NCBI GenBank assembly: GCA_947176505.1
Contig: CAMWQW010000015.1
Location: forward strand, 38,553 to 102,552
Direction of reading: 5' to 3'
Length of the DNA: 64,000 nt
DNA from: an uncultured Lachnospiraceae bacterium
Lineage (GTDB): Bacteria > Bacillota > Clostridia > Lachnospirales > Lachnospiraceae
How positions within the stretch are numbered: position 1 is the stretch's first letter; every line of letters starts with the position of its first letter. Of the stretch, positions 53,940-64,000 are shown one piece after another. The notes beneath the pieces were generated by a model. That model was given only the letters and a program-made list of their open reading frames with translations. It was not told where the DNA came from and did not search any database. Made by a program: the position numbers and the translations under genes.

Positions 53940-56066
53940 ATGGAACAAAATCCGAACACAGGGTATCTCTGTTTCATGATTGCAGCCAAATTCTTAAGGA
54001 TGAAAGTTCCGCAGGAACTGGCAGGCAGATTTACGGAAGAAGAGAATACCGACTATGAATTGATGAAAGCGGCGAAAGAACTGGGACTGAAAGCATCTGC
54101 CGGAAAGCTGAACCTTAAGAAAGTGGAGAATGCAGCCGTTCCGGTTATCGCGAAATTAAAAGATGGAAATTATCTGCTCATTGTTAACCGGAAGGACGAG
54201 CATAAGTGGACTATATTAAATCCGTTAAAAGGCGCGCCGGAGACAATGGAGGAAGCTGACCTTCTGGGGATACTGTCGGGTCAGGTCATCGTCCTTGCCA
54301 GAAAAAAGACAGACCCTGCCGGCGACGACTGCCGTAAGTTCGGATTCCGCTGGTTCATACCGACAATATTGAAATTCAAGAAGCAGTTTATCTGCGTTCT
54401 GCTTGCCGTATTTGTTATTCAGATCTTAGGCATATTGACGCCTCTTATGACGCAGGTAGTAGTGGACAAGGTACTTTCCCACCATGCGATGAACACCCTG
54501 TATACCATCGCCGTGGGGATATTTATTGTATATGTCTATGAACTGGGCATCAATCTGTGCAAAAGCTATCTGTTCGTACATACGACGAACCGGATTGATG
54601 TGACACTGAGCGCCAGACTGTTCCATCATCTGTTCGGATTACCCCTCAAATATTTTGAATCAAGGCGGGTGGGAGAGACCGTGGCGAGAGTCAGGGAACT
54701 CGATCAGATTCGTTCGTTTCTGACAGGAACACCGCTTTCATCTATGATTGACGTTTTTTTTGTGATCGTGTATGTAGTGGTGTTGTTCTTATACAGTGTT
54801 CCGTTGACGCTTATCGTAATTGCGTCATTGCCGCTGTTTGCAATTCTGTCACTTATCATCACGCCTTTATTTAAAAAGAGTCTGGATGAAAAGTTCGAGA
54901 CAGGAGCGAGGGCACAGTCGTTCCTCGTGGAGTCGGTGAACGGCATCCATACGGTCAAGTCTTTTGCGTTGGAATCCTCCTTCGAAGAAAAATGGGGAGA
55001 CTTGCAGTCCGATTACGTCAAAGCCGGATATAAAACATCCATGATTGCGCAGACTTCCAATGCCGTGGCAAACTTTATCCAGCATCTGGTAGACCTTCTG
55101 GTGCTTGTGTACGGCGCAAAGACGGTGATAGACGGCACGCTCTCCATCGGGCAGCTCGTGGCGTTCCGGATGCTGGCGGGCAGAGTAAGCGGACCGATTC
55201 TGCGTCTGGTACAGCTATGGCAGGAATATCAGCAGGCATCCTTGTCGGTCAAAAGGATTGGCGATATCTTCAATTCTCCGACAGAGCGTAAAAGTGACAA
55301 TTCCATACAGACGCTTCCGACTCTGCAGGGAAGAATCCGGTTCGAGAACGTAAGATTCCGCTACCGCATGGACGCATCCGACGTGCTCCACGGGATGTCC
55401 TTTGAAATTAAAGAGAATAAAGTCATCGGTCTGGTCGGGCGCAGCGGTTCCGGAAAAAGCACCATTTCGAAACTGATACAGCGGCTGTATATTCCTCAGA
55501 GCGGGCGTATCTTAATAGACGGTATGGACATCTCCCTGATGGATCCGCAGATGCTGCGCCGCCAGATTGGCGTAGTGCTGCAAGAGAACTTCATGTTCAA
55601 CGGCACCGTAGCTGAAAATATATCAATTCATTGCCCGTGCGTGACCATAGAACAGATTATGGAGACGGCTAAGATTGCAGGCGCGCACGATTTTATCATG
55701 GAACTGGAAGAAGGGTACGACACGATTATCGGTGAGAAAGGCGTATCCTTGTCCGGCGGTCAGAAACAGCGGATTGCAATCGCGAGGGCAATCATCAACA
55801 ATCCAAGGATACTGATATTTGATGAGGCTACGTCGGCGCTGGACTATGAATCGGAAAGCATTATCCAGCGGAATCTGCAGGATATCTGTAAGAACAGGAC
55901 CGTGCTGATCATAGCGCACCGCTTGTCAACCCTTTCGTCAGCCGATGAGATTATGGTGATTGACAGAGGCGAATTAAAAGAATCGGGCAGCCATGAAGAA
56001 CTGATGGGACAGGACGGCTTATATGCGTACCTGTATCATCAGCAATTGAGAGGCGAAGTAGATTAG
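53940..56066 (+). CDS. Type I secretion ABC transporter, HlyB-like with inactive C39 domain
   Basis: 708 residues. The N-terminal 125 residues are a C39 peptidase-like domain; the segment PNTGYLCFMIAAKF aligns with the catalytic DCGxA turn, but Thr replaces the Cys, so the domain should not cleave leaders and instead resembles the docking domain of HlyB. A six-helix exporter domain (about 145-430) follows, with TQVVVDKVLSHH. The ATPase has Walker A GRSGSGKST (500-508), signature LSGGQKQR, Walker B ILIFDEATSALD and switch His in IAHRLS. It would export an unprocessed protein with a C-terminal or internal signal. It forms an operon with the adaptor 21 bases downstream. Confidence 0.92.
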   Translation: MEQNPNTGYLCFMIAAKFLRMKVPQELAGRFTEEENTDYELMKAAKELGLKASAGKLNLKKVENAAVPVIAKLKDGNYLLIVNRKDEHKWTILNPLKGAPETMEEADLLGILSGQVIVLARKKTDPAGDDCRKFGFRWFIPTILKFKKQFICVLLAVFVIQILGILTPLMTQVVVDKVLSHHAMNTLYTIAVGIFIVYVYELGINLCKSYLFVHTTNRIDVTLSARLFHHLFGLPLKYFESRRVGETVARVRELDQIRSFLTGTPLSSMIDVFFVIVYVVVLFLYSVPLTLIVIASLPLFAILSLIITPLFKKSLDEKFETGARAQSFLVESVNGIHTVKSFALESSFEEKWGDLQSDYVKAGYKTSMIAQTSNAVANFIQHLVDLLVLVYGAKTVIDGTLSIGQLVAFRMLAGRVSGPILRLVQLWQEYQQASLSVKRIGDIFNSPTERKSDNSIQTLPTLQGRIRFENVRFRYRMDASDVLHGMSFEIKENKVIGLVGRSGSGKSTISKLIQRLYIPQSGRILIDGMDISLMDPQMLRRQIGVVLQENFMFNGTVAENISIHCPCVTIEQIMETAKIAGAHDFIMELEEGYDTIIGEKGVSLSGGQKQRIAIARAIINNPRILIFDEATSALDYESESIIQRNLQDICKNRTVLIIAHRLSTLSSADEIMVIDRGELKESGSHEELMGQDGLYAYLYHQQLRGEVD

Positions 56067-56087: not shown

Positions 56088-57200
56088 ATGAACAACTATT
56101 TACAAAAAAAACTGAAACTTCATGATAAAAAATTGAAATACGATTTTCTCCCCTCGATGATAGAGATTATAGAACGCCCGGCAAACAGACTGGCGGATGT
56201 CATACTTTTTCTGACTATCGCATTGATTGCAACCGCCATCGTCTGGGCTGCCTTGTGGGAAGTCGATATCGCGGTGACTGCCACGGGAAGCGTCATACCG
56301 GAGGGCGGCATAATTGCGATTGACAGCGCATACGGAGGCAGAATCGAGAGGATGGACGTGAAAGACGGCAGCTTTGTGAAAGCGGGCGACGTGGTTGCCG
56401 TATTGGAGAATGCCGAAGCTTGGTTCGATACAGAGGAATGCAGACATAATCTGGAAATCCTGCAGATTCAGCGAGAAATGTACGGCAGGATATACGAGGA
56501 TTTGTGTGTAGAAGAAAAAGAGGATAGTGATGACCTCTATACCACAGACACTTCGGCGTATGGCGAGTACGCTTTGCTGGCGGATGCCATTCTCCTTGAG
56601 AATGCCGTGTATGAAGAAGAACTGAACAGGATAGAAAACGAAGAGGAAAAGTCAGCTTATGAAAAACAGCACAGGCTGAGCGTCCTGCAGAATGTTAATA
56701 CGCTGGATGTGAAAATATACAGTGCCGAAATCAGCCTTCGGAACGCGGAAGAAAAACTGGAACGCTACACGCTGAAAGCACCGGCGGACGGTCAGATTAC
56801 CCAGATGTCCATGATTACGCAGGGGATGCTGGTGGAAGCGGGTGAGAGTATAGGGTATCTCATTCCGGCAGAAAAAGAAAATATGTTTACCGCCTATGTG
56901 CCGGACGAAGATATCAGTCAGATTCATACGGGCGATGCCGTCAGCGTTCGGATTGCAGCCTACCGTGATACGGAGAATGAATATATGGAAGGGACCATTG
57001 CGACCGTGGGAGATATAGCCCTTAACATAGACGGAATCGGGGCAGTCTACGCAGTCGGGATTCGGATAGAGAACCTCCCGGAAGACTTGAGAGTCGGAAT
57101 GGAAGGAACATGCGATATCATTGTCGGCACAAGAACCGTGCTCGATTATTTCATGGAACCTTTTCAGGACGGACTAAGGGACAGTCTGAAAGAGAAGTAG
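56088..57200 (+). CDS. HlyD-like membrane fusion/adaptor protein of the secretion system
   Basis: 370 residues with one N-terminal membrane helix (VILFLTIALIATAIVWAALW), then the lipoyl-like half domain (VTATGSVIPEGGIIAIDSAY, MDVKDGSFVKAGDVVAVLEN), a helical coiled region of about 100 residues, the second half-motif (APADGQITQMSMITQGMLVE) and a beta-barrel ending GMEGTCDIIVGTRTV. This is the organisation of HlyD adaptors, though with a shortened coiled coil, as expected in an organism without an outer membrane channel. The start follows GAGGA. It pairs with the HlyB-like ATPase. Confidence 0.9.
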   Translation: MNNYLQKKLKLHDKKLKYDFLPSMIEIIERPANRLADVILFLTIALIATAIVWAALWEVDIAVTATGSVIPEGGIIAIDSAYGGRIERMDVKDGSFVKAGDVVAVLENAEAWFDTEECRHNLEILQIQREMYGRIYEDLCVEEKEDSDDLYTTDTSAYGEYALLADAILLENAVYEEELNRIENEEEKSAYEKQHRLSVLQNVNTLDVKIYSAEISLRNAEEKLERYTLKAPADGQITQMSMITQGMLVEAGESIGYLIPAEKENMFTAYVPDEDISQIHTGDAVSVRIAAYRDTENEYMEGTIATVGDIALNIDGIGAVYAVGIRIENLPEDLRVGMEGTCDIIVGTRTVLDYFMEPFQDGLRDSLKEK

Positions 57201-57263: not shown

Positions 57264-58229
57264 ATGAAGCAGGTAGAGAGTACGGACAGAGTTCCGATTT
57301 ATGATGTGAAGGGAAATAAACTTGATGAAATCAGGCTGCCAGAGCGGATTATGCCGATTCCGGCAAGGAGAGGCGGCTTTTCGGAAAAGGGAATCTACTA
57401 TAAAGGGAGCGGCATCGTCTACAGAAACCACCTGTCGAATCGGGAACAGATTAAGATGACGACAGGAGAGCAGATTATCGGTAAGACGGGACTTATCTAT
57501 GAACGGTATCTGGCGTGTTACCCGACGTTGGTGCATAAGTTCGGCATATTCACTTTTCCACATCAGCCTGTCTTCACGGACTGCGAGGGCGGCTGCGGCA
57601 GGAAGGAACAGCGTCTTGTGGACAACCAGAAGATATTCGCATACAGCGCAATCGAGGAAATCGTTGATGTGATCCCAATCAGCATACCGGAACACTGTAT
57701 CTATGCCTACCGCCTGAAAAATGTGAAAGGCGGGATAGAGGATACGGTTGCCCTGCTGAAATACGTGCTTACCAACGACTTTAATACCGCATGGGATAAG
57801 AATCTATGGGAAGATATCTATGCCTACGGATATGTGCGGGATGTGGCGGACTGGTTCGTGTCGGACAGACCGGAACACAAACTCGGTACGGTATATGCGC
57901 TGTTAGATTCCCTGTACCGGGCGGATGTGTCGCTGTATGCCCAGCTGCTCTTAAGGTGTTTCGGGGAGTATTGTTTTGATAAGTATATGGTCTTATACTA
58001 CAGTGCTGCACTGGTGAGACGGTACTGCCCGGAATTGTTCGCGGAGGAGAATCCGGATATCGCACATTTCGATATTGGGATATATGAACGGCTGCTCACA
58101 TGCCTGTTCTCCGGCAAGGCGTGCTGTCATCTGGAAAAGGAAGAACAGTATGCGTGGGTGCGGGGATATTTTGACAGGGTAGGGAAGGAGCATGTGGAGA
58201 GGTTGAGGCGGAGATGGAGGTGGAGGTGA
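57264..58229 (+). CDS. Unknown protein encoded in the secretion operon
   Basis: 321-residue protein that I do not recognise. It opens MKQVESTDRVPIYDVKGNK, has a Cys-rich turn DCEGGCGRKEQ near residue 110, and a helical C-terminal half with paired aromatic segments such as WEDIYAYGYVRDVADWFV and LLLRCFGEYCFDKYMVLYY. There is no signal peptide or membrane helix. It ends in a very basic stretch (RLRRRWRWR). AGAGG precedes the ATG and it lies 63 bases after the adaptor gene. By position it may be a chaperone, modifying enzyme or regulator of the exported product. Confidence 0.6.
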   Translation: MKQVESTDRVPIYDVKGNKLDEIRLPERIMPIPARRGGFSEKGIYYKGSGIVYRNHLSNREQIKMTTGEQIIGKTGLIYERYLACYPTLVHKFGIFTFPHQPVFTDCEGGCGRKEQRLVDNQKIFAYSAIEEIVDVIPISIPEHCIYAYRLKNVKGGIEDTVALLKYVLTNDFNTAWDKNLWEDIYAYGYVRDVADWFVSDRPEHKLGTVYALLDSLYRADVSLYAQLLLRCFGEYCFDKYMVLYYSAALVRRYCPELFAEENPDIAHFDIGIYERLLTCLFSGKACCHLEKEEQYAWVRGYFDRVGKEHVERLRRRWRWR

Positions 58230-58354: not shown

Positions 58355-58813
58355 ATGGAATTTGAGTACAGAGAGATAAGTGAAGAAAGATGTAAGGAGA
58401 TTGACAGTTGGGAGATACATGACCCATATGGATATGGACTTGTTTTTACAGCGGAGAGAGAAGACTTTGTAACAAACAAGGATGAATCGATATTATTTTG
58501 CCATGCATTTATGCCAACGCATGATGATAGTGACAAATATGAGTATTGCCTATTTATATGGAATGATGAGTACAATTTAATGGTATATGATTTTGAATCT
58601 GTTACTGATGATAAATCTGGTTTGATACAGATACGCAATGAAGATATCGTGATTTTGGAAAATGAGTTTATAGAAAAAAGCGAAAATAAAAAAGAGTTAC
58701 TAGGTATTTTAAAAGCAATGATTTCAAAGTATGAAGAGAATTGTTGCCGTTTAGCGATTGCAAGAACATGGAAGTATAATTTTAAGTTTACATATAAGGG
58801 GGAAATAATTTGA
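58355..58813 (+). CDS. Small acidic protein, array family 1 copy A (possible immunity protein)
   Basis: 152-residue soluble acidic protein opening MEFEYREISEERCKEIDSWE. It contains DESILFCHAFMPTHDDSD and ends with a short helix and the strand FTYKGEII. Length, acidity and clustering with similar genes resemble immunity proteins of toxin systems, but no known family was recognised. ATG 58355 follows AAGGGAAGAAG; an upstream frame from 58313 is less likely. Its stop overlaps an ATG opening an eight-codon frame (MNDYEVVT), which corresponds to the start of the next companion gene and looks like its remnant. Base composition is more AT-rich than in the secretion genes. Confidence 0.68.
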   Translation: MEFEYREISEERCKEIDSWEIHDPYGYGLVFTAEREDFVTNKDESILFCHAFMPTHDDSDKYEYCLFIWNDEYNLMVYDFESVTDDKSGLIQIRNEDIVILENEFIEKSENKKELLGILKAMISKYEENCCRLAIARTWKYNFKFTYKGEII

Positions 58814-59003
58814 TGAATGATTATGAAGTAGTCACTTGAGAAAGGATTTATATTTGTAAACTTGTTTGTGCGAAACGAGAGACAGAGAAAAATTTATAGG
58901 CGATAGTTATATGGATGTAGTACAATGAAGCGGGTATATGAAAGGTGAGTATAGCTAATTACAATAGATAAAACAAAATTAAGTGAAAGAAGGGAAGAAG
59001 TTT

Positions 59004-59443
59004 ATGGAATTCGAGTACAGAGAGATAAGTGAAGAAAGATGTAAAGAGATTGACAGCTGGGAGATACGTGACTCATATGGGTGTGGCAAAGCTTATGCAG
59101 CGGAGAGAAAAAATTTGTTACAAATGAAGATGAATCAATATTGTTCTGTCATATGTTTAGTCCTCGCCATGATGACAGAGAAGGAAATAATGAATCATAC
59201 TTATTTGTTATGGATAAAGAATATCATATGGTAAGCCATATAGTGAAAGACATTAAAGTCATTGATAAAAAACATTGGATTGTATATGTAAATATTGTTG
59301 AAGATGATTATATTGATAATTGTGATAATAAAGTGATGAATATTCTGAAAAAAGTGATTGCGATTTTTATAAAGAAATATAGGAGTGAAATGCCGGGGGA
59401 ACATTTCAAATATCATTTTTATTATAAGGGGGAAGAAGTTTGA
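59004..59443 (+). pseudogene. Array family 1 copy B, interrupted by a -1 frameshift
   Basis: Second copy of the 58.36-kb gene, including its upstream region. The first 37 or so codons (MEFEYREISEERCKEIDSWE, then RDSYGCGKAYAAER) are in one frame; from a run of six A at about 59108-59113 the homologous protein continues in the -1 frame as FVTNEDESILFCHMFSPRHDD and ends HFYYKGEEV. Restored length would be 146 residues. One lost A explains it, but the A-AAA-AAT context also allows programmed -1 slippage. The stop overlaps the next start (TGATG), the same coupling seen in the other modules. Confidence 0.65.
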
Positions 59444-59673
59444 TGGATGAGTTTAAAGCAACTGTACAGGCACTTAAGAGAATCATCTTAAGTGGCGGTG
59501 AAACCGTGGAAGAAGATTGGATAGTGATAATAGATCAATTAGTCGGATTAAATGATGCGACAACTATTCAAAATATTCAGGATTTTGTTTGTGAAAATTT
59601 TTCATTGAAAAATTATCGTTACGAAACAAACCAGACCATGAAAATAACGGGGAAAAACCGATTACATAGATAA
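59443..59673 (+). CDS. Companion of array family 1, C-terminus replaced by repeat sequence
   Basis: 76-residue protein opening MDEFKATVQALKRIILSGGE. Its start overlaps the stop of the preceding frame. From about codon 58 the reading frame runs into the repeated leader that precedes every following module, so the last 18 or so residues (RYETNQTMKITGKNRLHR) are encoded by repeat DNA and are probably not native. I infer that the original 3' end was lost when the next module was inserted by recombination. No domain recognised. Confidence 0.5.
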   Translation: MDEFKATVQALKRIILSGGETVEEDWIVIIDQLVGLNDATTIQNIQDFVCENFSLKNYRYETNQTMKITGKNRLHR

Positions 59674-59776
59674 ACAAAAAACGTGGAAGGAGAACAAAAG
59701 AATGGGATTTGTGTATGAAGAAGTAGGAGAAGAGAACAGAGAGTTGTGGGAATCGATAGGGTGGAAAGATTGGGGG
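59615..59776 (+). repeat. Module repeat block, copy 1
   Basis: Leader from about 59615, GAAAATAACGG at 59640, through AACGTGGAAGGAGAAC and the first 25 codons of the small gene. Nearly identical blocks start at 60989, 61618 and 62960. The strict identity stops around the GGGTGGAAAGATTGGG sequence, after which the copies diverge. Confidence 0.9.
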
Positions 59777-60151
59777 GAGAAAAAAACAGTAGGATATTTT
59801 AAAACAAATTATTGGGTCATAGAGAAAGAACGACATATTTATATGCAGCCAATTGGAGGCTTTATTGATATGCCGAATTACCACGATCTTTCATACAAGG
59901 AAAGAATTATTCGTATGGAGGTTATAGACAAAGGAAATGGAACTATAGAAACAGGATTTAATATATCGTGGGATATTTGTCATATAAATATTCCTAAATC
60001 TGTTTGGGAAGAAAGAGATAAAATTATACAGGCGATAAAAGAAGCGTTTATGGTTTATAGGGCGGGACATGGTGAAGAGGATATTAATTCAATCTCTACT
60101 ACAATAAGCGGTAAACCTAAATGCGTGGAGGTGGATTATAATGGGAGATAA
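59702..60151 (+). CDS. Module small protein (family 2), copy 1
   Basis: 149-residue protein opening MGFVYEEVGEENRELWESIG. All copies share this N-terminus, then a variable part, then VYMQPIGGFIDMP-like and YKxRIIRMEV strands, a helix beginning IPKSVWEERDKIIQAI, and a C-terminal EVDYNGR. A single alpha/beta domain is likely; no known family was recognised. The conserved frame with variable middle is what one expects of an immunity or target-binding protein. GGAAGGAG lies 11 bases before the ATG. Its stop overlaps the companion start by 11 bases. Confidence 0.7.
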   Translation: MGFVYEEVGEENRELWESIGWKDWGEKKTVGYFKTNYWVIEKERHIYMQPIGGFIDMPNYHDLSYKERIIRMEVIDKGNGTIETGFNISWDICHINIPKSVWEERDKIIQAIKEAFMVYRAGHGEEDINSISTTISGKPKCVEVDYNGR

Positions 60152-60944
60152 TAGTACAATTATTGATTTGCTTAATGCATGGCTTCAATCATGGCGGGGA
60201 AATAATAATGTTCCGCCCAAGACGGTGCTGTCGGGAGAAACACTAAGTAAATTTATAGCTGACCTCCAGAATGAGATTGTAAATGTGATTGAGGATTTTG
60301 GGAAAAACAGTATCGGAGAAAATGCAAAATTAGTATTGTATTCAGGACTGGAGTATAATACTGTACAAGATTTTTGTGAAGTTTCTAATGGCGAATATTA
60401 CATGATTAGCCAAACTGCTGCTGATGTCTTGTGGAATCCAATATTTCGACAAACAGTTGTCGATGCGATTGGTGAGCAAAAAGTAACGGATTCCACCACC
60501 GCACAAGTTCTCGAAGGAAAGAAATATAATGCAGATGGTTCTTGGGAACGCATCAACCAATATGCCACAGAAAGCGGAAACTACCTTGTCCTTGACGATT
60601 TTATATCATCCAAAGTTGCAGAAGCGGGACTTGCCAAGGGCAATGTCGTATATCTGGTAGGGGAAGGGCTTAAGCCGGACAGTGTCGGACTTCTTACAGA
60701 AGTTCCCACAGTACTCAATGATGCAAACAACGCAGGGATAAATCTCTCAGATGCAGTCACCGTTGGAAAGAACCTCACCAAAAATGCTGACGGTACTTAC
60801 AGCTTTGAAATTGTGGACTGCTCAGATGTATCTGTGTACTTGGACCAGAGCGGCAGGGTGATATTTGTTGATTTTGTGGAAACGATTTCGGGCAATCCAG
60901 CGGAGATAATGGATTTTGAACTGGAGCTGGATTATTCGGCATAA
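60141..60944 (+). CDS. Module companion protein (family 2), copy 1
   Basis: 267-residue protein opening MGDNSTIIDLLNAWLQSWRG. A helical N-terminal region of about 65 residues contains SGETLSKFIADLQNEIVNVI, followed by the conserved core NSIGENAKLVLYSG, EYYMISQTAADVLW, VLEGKKYNADGSWERINQYA, LDDFISSKVAEAGLAKGNVV and DCSDVSVYLDQSGRVIFVDF. No signal peptide, membrane helix or cysteine-rich motif. It overlaps the small gene by 11 bases, so translation is coupled. Proximity to a HlyBD-type exporter makes it a candidate secreted effector, but this is inference. The 3' half is almost identical in DNA to copies 3 and 4. Confidence 0.68.
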   Translation: MGDNSTIIDLLNAWLQSWRGNNNVPPKTVLSGETLSKFIADLQNEIVNVIEDFGKNSIGENAKLVLYSGLEYNTVQDFCEVSNGEYYMISQTAADVLWNPIFRQTVVDAIGEQKVTDSTTAQVLEGKKYNADGSWERINQYATESGNYLVLDDFISSKVAEAGLAKGNVVYLVGEGLKPDSVGLLTEVPTVLNDANNAGINLSDAVTVGKNLTKNADGTYSFEIVDCSDVSVYLDQSGRVIFVDFVETISGNPAEIMDFELELDYSA

Positions 60945-60988
60945 TTTTTACTGGAGAAAAAGTATTGTTACGAAAAAAGCTGGAACGT

Positions 60989-61127
60989 GAAAATAACGGG
61001 GAAAAACCGATTACATAGATAAACAAAAAACGTGGAAGGAGAACAAAAGAATGGGATTTGTGTATGAAGAAGTAGGAGAAGAGAACAGAGAGTTGTGGGA
61101 ATCGATAGGGTGGAAAGACTGGGGGGA
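60989..61127 (+). repeat. Module repeat block, copy 2
   Basis: Same leader and first 25 codons as copy 1, beginning GAAAATAACGG at 60989; the flank before it (GTTACGAAAAAAGC) is only partly similar. Confidence 0.9.
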
Positions 61128-61501
61128 GAGAAAAGCAGTAGGATATTATAAAACAATGCACTGAGTCATTGATAAAGAACGACATATCTATATGCAGCCA
61201 ATAGGAGGTTTCATTGATATGCCGGATTATCATGACCTGTCATATAAAGGCAGGATTATCCGGATGGAGATTGTAAATAAATCAAGCGGGAGTATAGCCG
61301 ATGGGATTTATATGGCATGGGAAATTAAACGTATATATATCCCCCCAGTCAATTTGGGAGGAAAGGGATATGATTCTGCAGGCAGTGAAAGGGGCATTTG
61401 GGGTTTATCGTGCAAGCCATGATGAAGAGGATATCAAGTCCGTTTCAGTTGAGATAAGCTGTGAACCTGAGTGTGTGGAGGCAGATTATAATGGGAGATA
61501 A
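61051..61501 (+). pseudogene. Module small protein (family 2), copy 2, disrupted
   Basis: Homologous over its full length but with two lesions. Codon 38 is TGA (61162-61164) where the other copies have TGG for Trp. Further on, a run of six C (61341-61346) has one extra base compared with the frame that continues QSIWEERDMILQAV. Both the HIYMQPIGGF core and the ADYNGR end are still readable, so the decay is recent. Confidence 0.85.
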
Positions 61502-61586
61502 TAAGGAAATTGCGGATATGCCTATTTTGAAAAATCCGACGAAGATAACGGGTTTTGAACTGGATTATTTGGTATGGCTTTTGTAA
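61491..61586 (+). pseudogene. Module companion, copy 2, internally deleted
   Basis: 31 codons only: MGDNKEIADMPILKN joined directly to NPTKITGFELDYL, which corresponds to the last codons of intact companions (NPAEIMDFELELDY). Over 200 codons between the start and the tail have been lost, leaving the frame intact. Confidence 0.75.
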
Positions 61587-61591
61587 AAAAG

Positions 61592-61752
61592 TATCGTTAC
61601 GAAACAAACCAGACCATGAAAATAACGGGGAAAAACCGATTACATAGATAAACAAAAAACGTGGAAGGAGAACAAAAGAATGGGATTTGTGTATGAAGAA
61701 GTAGGAGAAGAGAACAGAGAGTTGTGGGAATCGATAGGGTGGAAAGATTGGG
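61592..61752 (+). repeat. Module repeat block, copy 3
   Basis: Leader TATCGTTACGAAAC and GAAAATAACGG (61618) through the start of the small gene, essentially identical to copy 1 including the upstream flank. Confidence 0.9.
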
Positions 61753-62126
61753 TGAAAAATCCAATAGATTTTTGTTCAATTGTACATTGGGCTATTGATA
61801 GGGAGAACAAAGTATACATGCAGCCAATAGGCTCCTTTATTGATACACCAGAGTACTATGATTTGGCATATAAAGGAAGAATTGTAAGAATGGAAATATT
61901 AGAACATGGGGATGGAACAAGAAGTAAAGGATTTAATATATTATGGGATGTTCATAGGATTTGTATTCCTCAATCAATTTGGGAGTACAAAAGTGAAATA
62001 TTAAAGGCTGTTTTTGAGTCTTTTAAGGTTTGTAGGGGTGTAATTCCAGAGGATAAAGTGAAATCTATTTCTGTAGAAATAAACTGCACTCCAGAATGCA
62101 TGGAGGAGGATTATAATGGAAGATAA
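61680..62126 (+). CDS. Module small protein (family 2), copy 3
   Basis: 148-residue intact copy. The first 24 residues match copy 1; then the middle differs (VKNPIDFCSIVHWAIDREN) and later strands are variant (GSFIDTPEYYDLAYKGRIV). The pattern of an identical start and divergent body suggests recombination between modules or diversifying selection. It keeps the IPQSIWEYKSEIL helix and the terminal EEDYNGR. The stop overlaps the companion start by 11 bases. GGAAGGAG is upstream. Confidence 0.7.
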   Translation: MGFVYEEVGEENRELWESIGWKDWVKNPIDFCSIVHWAIDRENKVYMQPIGSFIDTPEYYDLAYKGRIVRMEILEHGDGTRSKGFNILWDVHRICIPQSIWEYKSEILKAVFESFKVCRGVIPEDKVKSISVEINCTPECMEEDYNGR

Positions 62127-62910
62127 AAGTATTAAGCAAAAACTTATAGAATGGGTCAGGCAGTGGCGAAGTGATAATGGAGTTTCAGATGATGTAGACT
62201 TGTTATCCACAGAATATCTGGATAAGTTTGTAGGAGAACTTTAGAATAAAATAGTAAATGTATGTAATGATTTTGGAAAGAACAGCATCGGAGAAAATGC
62301 GAAATTAGTGTTGTATTCAGGAATACACTACAAATTTGTTCAAGATTTTTGTGAAGCATCCAATGGTGAATATTATATGATTAGTCAGACGATAGCTGAT
62401 GTTTTATGGGATGGAGATTTTCGACAAGCAATTGCAGAGGCAATTGGCGAAAATGATGTGGATGACCCTATCACCGCACGAGTCCTTGAAGGAAAAAAGT
62501 ATAATGCTGATGGTTCATGGGAACGCATCAACCAATATGCCAAAGAAAGCGGCAACTACCTTGCCCTTGACGATTTTATATCATCCAAAGTTGCAGAAGC
62601 GGGACTTGCCAAGGGTAATGTCGTATATCTTGTAGGGGAGGGGCTTAAGCCGGACAGTGTCGGACTTCTTACAGAAGTTCCCACAGTACTCAATGATGCG
62701 AATAACGGAGGAATGAATCTTTCAGATGTAGTCACCGTTGGAAAGAATCTTACCCAAAATGCTGACGGTAGTTACAGCTTCGAAATTGTAGACTGCTCGG
62801 ATGTATCTGTTTACTTGGACCAGAGCGGCAGGGTGATATTTGTTGATTTTGTGGAAATGATTTCGGGCAATCCAGCGGAGATAACGGATTTTGAACTGGA
62901 AATGGATTAA
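62116..62910 (+). pseudogene. Module companion (family 2), copy 3, interrupted by a stop codon
   Basis: Opens MEDKSIKQKLIEWVRQWRSD, has LSTEYLDKFVGEL and then a TAG at 62242-62244 where copies 1 and 4 have CAG (Gln). The frame continues in phase to 62910 with the normal core, including YYMISQTIADVLW and VLEGKKYNADGSW. A single C-to-T change explains it. Downstream reinitiation near 62308 could make a 200-residue product. Confidence 0.8.
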
Positions 62911-62959
62911 GTTGCATAATTTTTTGTAAAAAGTGTTATTATCAAACAAGCCAAAACAT

Positions 62960-63096
62960 GAAAATAACGGGGAAAACCGATTAGATAAATAAACAAAAAT
63001 GAACGTGGAAGGAGAACAAAAGAATGGGATTTGTGTATGAAAAGGTAGGAGAAGAGAACAGAGAGTTGTGGGAGTCGATAGGGTGGAAAAATTGGG
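62960..63096 (+). repeat. Module repeat block, copy 4
   Basis: GAAAATAACGG at 62960 through the first codons of the small gene, slightly diverged from copies 1-3 (GATTAGATAAAT instead of GATTACATAGAT, and two extra bases before ACGTGGAAGG). Confidence 0.88.
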
Positions 63097-63470
63097 GTAA
63101 GAAAACTATAGAGTTTTGTTCCATTACACATTGGGTTGTTAACAAGGAGCAGAAAGTTTATATGCAGCCAATAGGAGGCTTTATTGATATGCCAGATTAT
63201 CATGATTTGGCATATCAAGGTAAGATTGTACGCATGGAGGTTATAAGTCATGGAAGCGGTTCCAGACGAGATGGATTTCATAAAGTTTGGAGTATTAATA
63301 AGATATATATCCCGAAATCTATATGGAATGATAAAGATAAAATATTGCAGGTAATAAAAGAGGCATTTAGTGTTTACAGAGGCGGAACGGGAGAAGAGTT
63401 TATAAATTCAATTACTGTTGAAATAAGCTGTGATCCTGAGTGTGTGGAGGTGGATTACAATGGAAGATAG
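63024..63470 (+). CDS. Module small protein (family 2), copy 4
   Basis: 148-residue intact copy opening MGFVYEKVGEENRELWESIG. The body resembles copy 3 in the FCSITHWVVNKEQKVYMQ part and copy 1 in GGFIDMPDYHDL, so it looks like a mosaic. C-terminus EVDYNGR is conserved. GGAAGGAG precedes the ATG. The stop overlaps the next start by 11 bases. Confidence 0.7.
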   Translation: MGFVYEKVGEENRELWESIGWKNWGKKTIEFCSITHWVVNKEQKVYMQPIGGFIDMPDYHDLAYQGKIVRMEVISHGSGSRRDGFHKVWSINKIYIPKSIWNDKDKILQVIKEAFSVYRGGTGEEFINSITVEISCDPECVEVDYNGR

Positions 63471-64000
63471 CAGTATTAAGAAAATACTTATAAATTGGGT
63501 TAATGCATGGAGAAGTAATAACGGTATTCCAGAAGAGCCAGAGAATCAGGATGATGACGGAAAATTGACAGGAGAAACACTTGATAAGTTTGTGCTGGAT
63601 CTCCAGAATGAAATTTTAAATGTGATTGGAGATTTTGGAAAGAACAGTATTGGAGAAAATGCAAAGTTAGTATTGTATTCAGGATTGGGGTATAACACTA
63701 TACAAGATTTTTGTGAAGTTTCTAATGGCGAATATTACATGATTAGCCAGACAGCAGCAGATGTTTTGTGGGATGGTGAATTTCGGCAGGCAGTCGCATT
63801 TACAATTGGTGAAGAAAATATAAAGGATTCCACCACCGCACAAGTTCTCGAAGGAAAGAAATATAATGCTGATGGTTCATGGGAACGCATCAACCAATAC
63901 GCCACAGAAAGCGGAAAATATCTTGCACTTGACGATTTTCTTTCTTCCAAAGTTGCAGAAGCGGGACTTGCCAAGGGCAATGTCGTATATCTGGTAGGGG
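63460..64000 (+). CDS. Module companion (family 2), copy 4, 3' partial
   Basis: Open from ATG 63460 to the window edge, 180 codons without a stop. It opens MEDSSIKKILINWVNAWRSN, carries a short Glu/Asp-rich insert (EEPENQDDDG) and the core seen in copy 1 (NSIGENAKLVLYSG, YYMISQTAADVLW, AEAGLAKGNVVYL). By comparison about 90 codons remain outside the window. This appears to be an intact copy, so the array has at least two intact companions. Confidence 0.7.
   Translation, partial: MEDSSIKKILINWVNAWRSNNGIPEEPENQDDDGKLTGETLDKFVLDLQNEILNVIGDFGKNSIGENAKLVLYSGLGYNTIQDFCEVSNGEYYMISQTAADVLWDGEFRQAVAFTIGEENIKDSTTAQVLEGKKYNADGSWERINQYATESGKYLALDDFLSSKVAEAGLAKGNVVYLVG

Follow-up and report, generated by a model that had tools for sequence, protein, structure and literature searches.

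Polymorphic toxins have been characterised as proteins with a variable C-terminus (PMC3482391), and in the contact-dependent growth inhibition (CDI) and Rhs systems displaced toxin/immunity fragments lie in tandem, some of them homologous to the main gene (PMC3150448, PMC4927057); our statements on published systems refer to excerpts of the articles cited by PubMed Central (PMC) accession, except where a main text is named. In FrpC, a protein with repeats-in-toxin (RTX) motifs, cutting and linking of an Asp-Pro bond have been shown (PMC7078468), and FrpC/FrpD have been proposed, on the strength of Smlt3024/Smlt3025, to be a type I antibacterial effector and its immunity protein (PMC6759196). 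Also, FtxA of Filifactor alocis is a Gram-positive RTX protein with a self-processing-like module, an N-terminal part carrying an alpha/beta-hydrolase-type motif, and HlyB/HlyD equivalents encoded in its operon (PMC7692872). Strings of tandem, non-identical immunity genes whose conserved blocks recombine (esaG, tipC) are described for the type VII secretion system (T7SS) (PMC9484751), and delivery by the type VI secretion system (T6SS), T7SS and CDI is named for ADP-ribosyl cyclase toxins (PMC12605009); in a term search, "RTX" and "type I secretion" were absent from the main text of PMC12605009 and PMC12356396. Here, we describe a tandem array of small genes and their companions behind HlyB/HlyD-type genes in an uncultured Lachnospiraceae bacterium, located at the end of a 64,000-nucleotide stretch of DNA (hereafter, the window) that is also the end of its contig, C15 (CAMWQW010000015.1; the genome assembly is 4.17 Mb in 62 contigs). 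We consider it quite probable, judging from sequences and a single predicted structure, that this locus encodes a polymorphic antibacterial toxin exported by the HlyB/HlyD type I route; its toxic part is most likely N-terminal, with the immunity genes and orphan cassettes on the 5' side, the reverse of CDI/Rhs.

The preliminary description of this DNA had read the array as a series of two-gene units, in which a small protein is followed by a 267-residue companion. This companion is instead the truncated head of a giant RTX protein, and most of the modules are displaced or broken. Residues 240-266 of the companion recur, 96% identical, at the start of a frame of 1,162 residues that is open at both ends and spans the whole of another contig, C59. 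Some five repeats of about 60 residues can be read in this frame by eye. They are accompanied by a hydrophobic stretch rich in glycine, by a homologue of the self-processing module of FrpC (PDB 6sjw, E 2.7e-36) with its Asp-Pro present, and by RTX (nonapeptide calcium-binding) repeats (PF00353, E 1.4e-25); the second end of the frame overlaps contig C37, on which the RTX gene terminates. We infer the joins C15-C59-C37 from the contig-end repeats and from the arrangement in L075, a Lachnospiraceae record assembled from a metagenome, in which HlyB, HlyD, a 321-residue protein, a 149-residue small protein (61-63% identical to the three intact type B copies of the window) and a 1,427-residue effector follow one another in a single run. 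The L075 effector, which matches that of the same-genus genome G423 at 100%, bears the FrpC-type self-processing module and RTX repeats, and aligned along it, one after the other, are the 267-residue head (52%), C59 (64%) and C37 (46%). This collinear alignment indicates that the companion is an effector head that has become detached; the array is accordingly a series of displaced 5' ends of the effector gene. A C-terminal end of the form xQLW is common to seven places (C37, L075, L077, L078, L079, L081 and the remnant L128), and a differing, NQLL-type end is found in L085, L090, L091 and L094; export by HlyB/HlyD would presumably proceed through a signal in the effector C-terminus.

Related loci were collected by using the C59 module with its following region as the query against 397 genomes of the family, 111 of which matched, mostly with frames of roughly 200-620 residues; only long effectors were taken forward (those of the window's own genome, G147, G092, G131 and G334, and two each of G188 and G087). 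A scan of the region after the C59 module against a named genome collection gave 20 loci, and 26 loci, window included, were compared (L076, L082 and L084 duplicate the contigs of L069, L038 and L070, respectively, and each contig was counted once). The tail recurs across the 26 loci with heads of several types, usually with the matching small protein directly upstream. In 23 of the 26, a frame on the same strand has its end no more than 115 bases before the effector start or up to 41 bases past it, the 105-residue frame of L085 being possibly unrelated; of the remaining three, two have no upstream DNA and one is masked. Asp-Pro stands at the module start in 23 loci and Ser-Pro in L073 and L074, the start being not covered in L085. 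The hydrophobic stretch is present in many effector tails, and the C59 repeats and hydrophobic region had no match in seven other effectors in which the module did match. These comparisons indicate a recurring tail (self-processing module, RTX and, in many, the hydrophobic stretch) that carries a variable N-terminal head. As to co-occurrence with the HlyBD-like genes, for which a Lachnospiraceae survey was suggested earlier, HlyB and HlyD adjoin 10 of the 26 loci (the window, L075, L077, L078, L080, L081, L085, L090, L091 and L094), HlyD alone is found at a contig end in L038, and neither was found on the available DNA around the other 15. These families are rare: two of the 77 genomes examined in the genus have the long effector, and among the 397 family genomes, B/C small proteins are found in 5 and type A (profile A4) in 6, one match in each being weak. 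No relative of the small protein was found in one viral-collection scan, and none of the 267-residue head in one plasmid search.

Exchange of heads is visible in L077 and L078, the same locus in two near relatives with flanks about 96% identical in DNA: the tails are 83% identical over 587 residues, whereas the heads have no detected similarity, that of L077 aligning with type A heads and that of L078 with type B. In L080, an orphan type A small gene and a 556-residue truncated type A effector are followed by a type C small gene with its effector, and the truncated and full effectors share 501 bp at 98.4% after their heads; this layout is the footprint expected if a new cassette recombined in, pushing the old one upstream. 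Upstream copies of effector heads are found in the window, L072, L073, L083 and, as a short one, L092, and L080 has a copy of the post-head region. Upstream of the small gene, 11 of 23 loci carry a paralogue of it in tandem. Among 28 control gene pairs taken from these loci, two are paralogous in this way, and one of the two is itself an orphan module. Furthermore, similarity of the small type and of the head type coincides in 19 pairs, against a mean of 2.3 and a maximum of 8 in 2,000 shuffles; the set omits L043, L074, L078 and L086 and adds four orphan pairs, and kinship of the loci inflates the figure somewhat. A constant trafficking part together with an exchangeable toxin-candidate part is thus seen in L077/L078, in L080 and in the several head types, and the variable part is N-terminal, not C-terminal as in the classical layout. 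The comparisons indicate that heads have been exchanged with conserved stretches at the boundaries, and that displaced small-gene/head pairs remain upstream, with small genes that are often still intact.

In the window itself (Table 1), several features noted earlier were confirmed. The leader and the first ~18 codons of the four type B modules are 95-100% identical (60-base steps; four module pairs compared), and identity then falls over the small-protein body and the head start, where it is 46-82% (36-90% between modules 1 and 2, the pair with the more similar small genes); at the head end, identity is back up to 85-100%, and the modules are mosaic along the DNA. The proposed diversification of cassettes by recombination is therefore visible here as well as in L077/L078 and L080. 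A related-looking small-gene family (type A) does lie just before these modules, from position 58355 onward, and after its intact gene just a few codons of a head are left. Modules of 148 and 267 residues had been described, and every small gene does overlap the start of the frame after it by 11 bases, but both frames are intact in module 1 only (149 and 267 residues): the small genes of type B are intact in three of four cases, and a companion of 267 residues is found in one of four. Nor does the array lie "directly" behind HlyBD, as a gene for a 321-residue protein intervenes. A scan for promoters and terminators was uninformative (28 vs 23.9 expected and 5 vs 3.4 expected, respectively). 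With modules A2, B2 and B3 partly or wholly broken, one might regard the array as a tandem duplication in decay at the start of an RTX operon, with extra copies that have no function. We find this very unlikely: four of the six small genes of the window (types A and B) are intact, although only one head, the last, is inferred to be part of a full effector; comparison of L075 and the window's three intact type B copies with one another gives a ratio of nonsynonymous to synonymous substitution rates (dN/dS) of 0.12-0.37 (0.16-0.37 for B1 against B3, B4 and L075); and the same layout occurs with other heads at other loci.

Table 1. Features at the end of the window (positions in the window; aa, amino acid residues)
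Feature	Position	Strand	Remarks
HlyB-type type I secretion ATPase/permease (708 aa)	53940..56066	+	TIGR01846 876 bits, cut-off 725.55; C39-like domain PF03412
HlyD-type adaptor (370 aa)	56088..57200	+	PF13437 E 3.6e-14; TIGR01843 162 bits, below cut-off 208.65
Protein X (321 aa), between HlyD and array	57264..58229	+	0 families in Pfam/NCBIfam
Small protein type A, intact (152 aa), candidate orphan immunity gene	58355..58813	+	
Second type A small gene (A2), frameshifted into two frame pieces	59004..59443	+	
Type A head remnant (77 aa)	59440..59673	+	By eye like start of type A heads
Leader block of module B1	59622..59701	+	DNA comparison of module copies; other copies near 60971-61050, 61600-61679 and 62942-63023
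Small protein B1 (149 aa), intact, candidate immunity protein	59702..60151	+	
Detached effector head B1 (267 aa), predicted ADP-ribosyl-cyclase-like domain, without tail	60141..60944	+	
Small protein B2, broken by in-frame stop and frameshift	61051..61501	+	
Head remnant B2 (31 aa), most of head deleted	61491..61586	+	
Small protein B3 (148 aa), intact; companion broken	61680..62126	+	
Head B3, interrupted by in-frame stop	62116..62910	+	
Small protein B4 (148 aa), intact; candidate cognate immunity gene of full effector	63024..63470	+	
Effector head B4 start, runs off contig C15	63460..64000	+	Inferred continuation on C59 (L010) and C37 (L021)

The small protein is probably the immunity protein of its head. 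In G341, a genome of a single contig, three intact type A small genes stand in tandem, and the 20 kb read there hold neither head nor tail and, apart from a generic ABC match, nothing HlyB-like; in G391, likewise of a single contig, four type A genes and one type C gene lie beside truncated heads and an RTX remnant. Contig C29 of G131 gave six B/C-like small-gene matches with no effector in the 19 kb read, the effector of this genome being on C43, and G125, absent among the 111 effector-matching genomes, has one B/C small gene. Such persistence of small genes in arrays without an intact effector fits immunity better than a chaperone. The intactness of four of the six small genes in the window and the low dN/dS of the type B copies point to immunity as well. 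A dedicated secretion chaperone or adaptor, keeping the head unfolded or soluble for HlyB/HlyD, would be consistent with the translational overlap, with co-variation with the head, and with a protein of about 150 residues encoded near HlyBD and having no hydrophobic N-terminal segment; nonetheless, the small-gene arrays without effector (G341 and G131 C29) or with effector fragments only (G391) and the frequent tandem copies make this role unlikely. Homologues lacking a secretion system had been regarded as a point against the effector/immunity idea; they do occur in G341, G125 and G131 C29, but this is what is expected of orphan immunity genes and hence argues against a chaperone, not against immunity. 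As a separate observation, the B/C-like genes of G131 C29 (L126:578-9854) are mixed with several membrane/lipoprotein-like small genes, and this array may be a multi-toxin immunity island.

The type of small protein also changes with the type of head. Lipase-like heads are recognised by PF11187 in L072, L081, L083 and L090 and by head similarity in L094, and the small proteins beside them have a hydrophobic N-terminal segment, which types A, B and C lack. The hydrophobic forms match the expected site of attack of a lipase, and such membrane/lipoprotein-like proteins could hardly be cytosolic chaperones. At L072:5830-6333, we note an orphan lipase head without the GHSKG motif of the full effector, the small gene upstream of it being intact. 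The lack of a hydrophobic segment in types A, B and C bears also on an FrpD-like role in tethering or adhesion, in which the head is linked to a surface and held there by its small partner without any toxicity. The module is shared with FrpC, which through its N-terminal part both binds FrpD and becomes linked to epithelial proteins (PMC5233953), but small proteins of types A, B and C would be poorly suited to tether a secreted head, the predicted head fold is enzyme-like, and orphan arrays exist, so that we see a tether as highly unlikely.

By sequence, the small proteins match no Pfam or NCBIfam family above the cut-off and have no convincing match in the PDB. Those of types B and C are demonstrably homologous to each other. 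The Pfam matches of B1 to TYW2_N_2 (E 0.018) and of the type A protein of L069 to PH_14 (E 0.013) were taken as chance, as were PDB matches to EF-hand proteins (calcium-binding protein 4, hippocalcin and recoverin; E 0.049-0.57) and to sortilin (0.078); type A matched no PDB chain up to E 1. The gene hlyC sits just upstream of its RTX gene, and the small gene, with the same placement, might be thought to encode a HlyC-like activating acyltransferase or another RTX-modifying enzyme. The absence of any such family match, the change of the small-protein sequence with the head, and the arrays without effector leave this extremely unlikely.

As to the head, no domain family had been recognised in the companion at first, which holds for Pfam and NCBIfam, but a structure-based search, as had been suggested, adds a predicted fold that is ADP-ribosyl-cyclase-like. 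When Foldseek's best 1,000 were compared by VIA-align, the model of head B1 (pLDDT 74.5, pTM 0.73) matched ADP-ribosyl cyclases of the CD38 type, along with two bacterial toxins sharing this fold, at modest scores, and head B can be assigned to a CD38-like fold on the basis of this prediction. A glutamate of the ELP-type motif is found in six of the six B/C heads that reach the motif, its position being taken from a weak alignment with 9ro8; this alignment is too weak to place the second glutamate and the two active-site tryptophans confidently in head B. Head type A gave no lead to a fold or family, and its profile comparison with head B is weak (probability 22%). The head in the window may thus be an ADP-ribosyl-cyclase-like enzyme that destroys NAD(P)+ (nicotinamide adenine dinucleotide or its phosphate) in a neighbouring cell.

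Several points weigh against reading the locus as an exported toxin with its immunity genes. The head model rests on 7 sequences, and its fold matches have Z <= 8.1, in the range where the tool warns of common arrangements; the ELP motif pattern was drawn up after the alignment was seen, the sequence match to 9ro8 is not significant, with unrelated ZapA and thiol reductase chains scoring higher, and PF02267 appears in one of the six B/C heads scanned, below the unrelated PDGF_N (E 0.024). C15, C59 and C37 are separate contigs that the assembly does not join, and several of the relatives are metagenome assemblies. Co-variation of small protein and head fits a head-specific chaperone as well, and 18 of 325 pairs are discordant (15 with the same head type and another small type, three the reverse). 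The A and B small proteins show no significant relatedness, and L073, L091 and L092 have membrane/lipoprotein-like small proteins where no lipase head is shown. Also, effectors of L073, L074, L086-L089 and L093 have signal-peptide-like starts with no HlyBD on their contigs, so that arrays upstream of an effector are not a feature of type I secretion only. On balance, the observation in the preliminary description is partly confirmed. Its interpretation finds support in part: the idea of an effector with immunity is well supported, as is its link to HlyB/HlyD.

Among the neighbouring genes, Protein X, which is found after HlyD also in L075, L038 and (by eye) L080, occurs in 3 of the 397 family genomes; it was dropped as an anchor of the system because it occurs without the system in G370. 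Two adjacent radical S-adenosylmethionine (SAM)/SPASM-type genes follow the RTX end on C37 (L021:8504-10959), the first resembling peptide maturases and the second giving a weak match, both below the family cut-offs; the pair was left out of the system, since it is not beside the effector in L075. A second accessory protein (226-247 residues; similar by eye), which matched no Pfam family above the cut-off in the two members scanned, lies before the small gene at L038:4565-5245, L069:784-1527 and L080:3748-4491. Two to five tandem members of a further small-protein family (~246-275 residues) stand directly upstream of signal-peptide-bearing effectors with the same self-processing module at L087:4423-8227, L089:6768-8287 and L093:4779-8277, and these too had no Pfam family above the cut-off (two members). 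The 3,709-residue protein of L073:2807-13936 has repeats of the GLUG and M26-N types; before it lie a truncated duplicate of its own N-terminal part and two membrane-type small proteins in tandem. Finally, a self-processing-module-like protein of roughly 350-430 residues is common in the family and the genus; that on C45 (L022:8183-9424) adjoins genes resembling (by eye) spoIID and an M23 peptidase.

If the locus does encode an antibacterial toxin, HlyB/HlyD would export the effector, presumably by its C-terminus, and outside the cell calcium would fold the repeats and the module. The Asp-Pro bond would then be cut and linked, so that the module either releases the head or ties it to a surface. 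Entry of the head into the target cell might involve the hydrophobic stretch that precedes the module. The head would act on a neighbour and the small protein keep siblings safe, and the orphan array might protect against siblings with older or other heads and also store material, as homologous arms, for later exchange. Judging from Lachnospiraceae records, the host is probably a monoderm Gram-positive bacterium. More broadly, we think it reasonably likely that there is a class of reversed-polarity polymorphic toxins with an N-terminal toxic domain, 5' immunity and retired cassettes upstream, the heads ranging from ADP-ribosyl-cyclase NADases to lipases; monoderm gut and rumen Clostridia would be the users, and a calcium-triggered Asp-Pro clip would free the head or crosslink it on the target surface. 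The toxic domain would be N-terminal in this class because type I export needs the C-terminus, and the place of the immunity genes and orphan cassettes is accordingly suggested to follow from the end of the protein that bears the export signal. Such a class, if true, would imply cytosolic immunity for NADases and membrane-anchored immunity for lipases, explain FrpC/FrpD-type RTX proteins as bacterial weapons, and add competition between bacteria to the uses of type I secretion in Gram-positive gut species. Self-processing RTX proteins are usually seen as host-directed or adhesive, and the reversed layout offers them a testable function.

Compared with the known systems, the locus in the window shares with CDI/Rhs a constant delivery part, an exchangeable part (here the putative toxin) with its own candidate immunity gene, and tandem displaced fragments. 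In CDI/Rhs, however, the toxin is C-terminal, the orphans lie downstream and the toxin fragments are mostly without start signals, whereas in the window the head is N-terminal, the candidate immunity gene is 5', the orphans are upstream with start codons kept and the export tail lost, and export would be of type I; HlyB/HlyD and RTX families, and none of CdiB/CdiA or Rhs, were among the library matches of the window and C59. FrpC/FrpD, ApxIVA and Smlt3024/Smlt3025 resemble the window in the Asp-Pro module, the RTX tail and a partner that binds, or in the window would bind, the N-terminal head, but FrpD is an outer-membrane lipoprotein, and the excerpts on FrpC/FrpD describe no array, head exchange or ADP-ribosyl-cyclase head. 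FtxA is treated as a candidate virulence factor, its source (PMC7692872) describing, in the excerpts, neither an immunity partner nor head exchange. The esaG/tipC strings are similar in their tandem small-gene copies with conserved blocks, but involve other proteins and another secretion route, and the abstract mentions no toxin-head fragments between the copies. Tac1 (T7SS; we take 9ouf to be Tac1 from its species, Streptococcus parasanguinis) and PANA_2924 ARCtox (T6SS) are like the B/C heads in the predicted fold and the aligned glutamate motif, but their domains are C-terminal in T7SS/T6SS proteins, unlike the N-terminal head of the window. Among the titles and opening lines of abstracts listed for open-licence PMC papers, we found no description of this layout, the nearest being the FrpC/FrpD proposal (PMC6759196). 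What is new here, therefore, is the polarity opposite to that of CDI/Rhs, the type I route in Gram-positives, and the visible exchange of heads.

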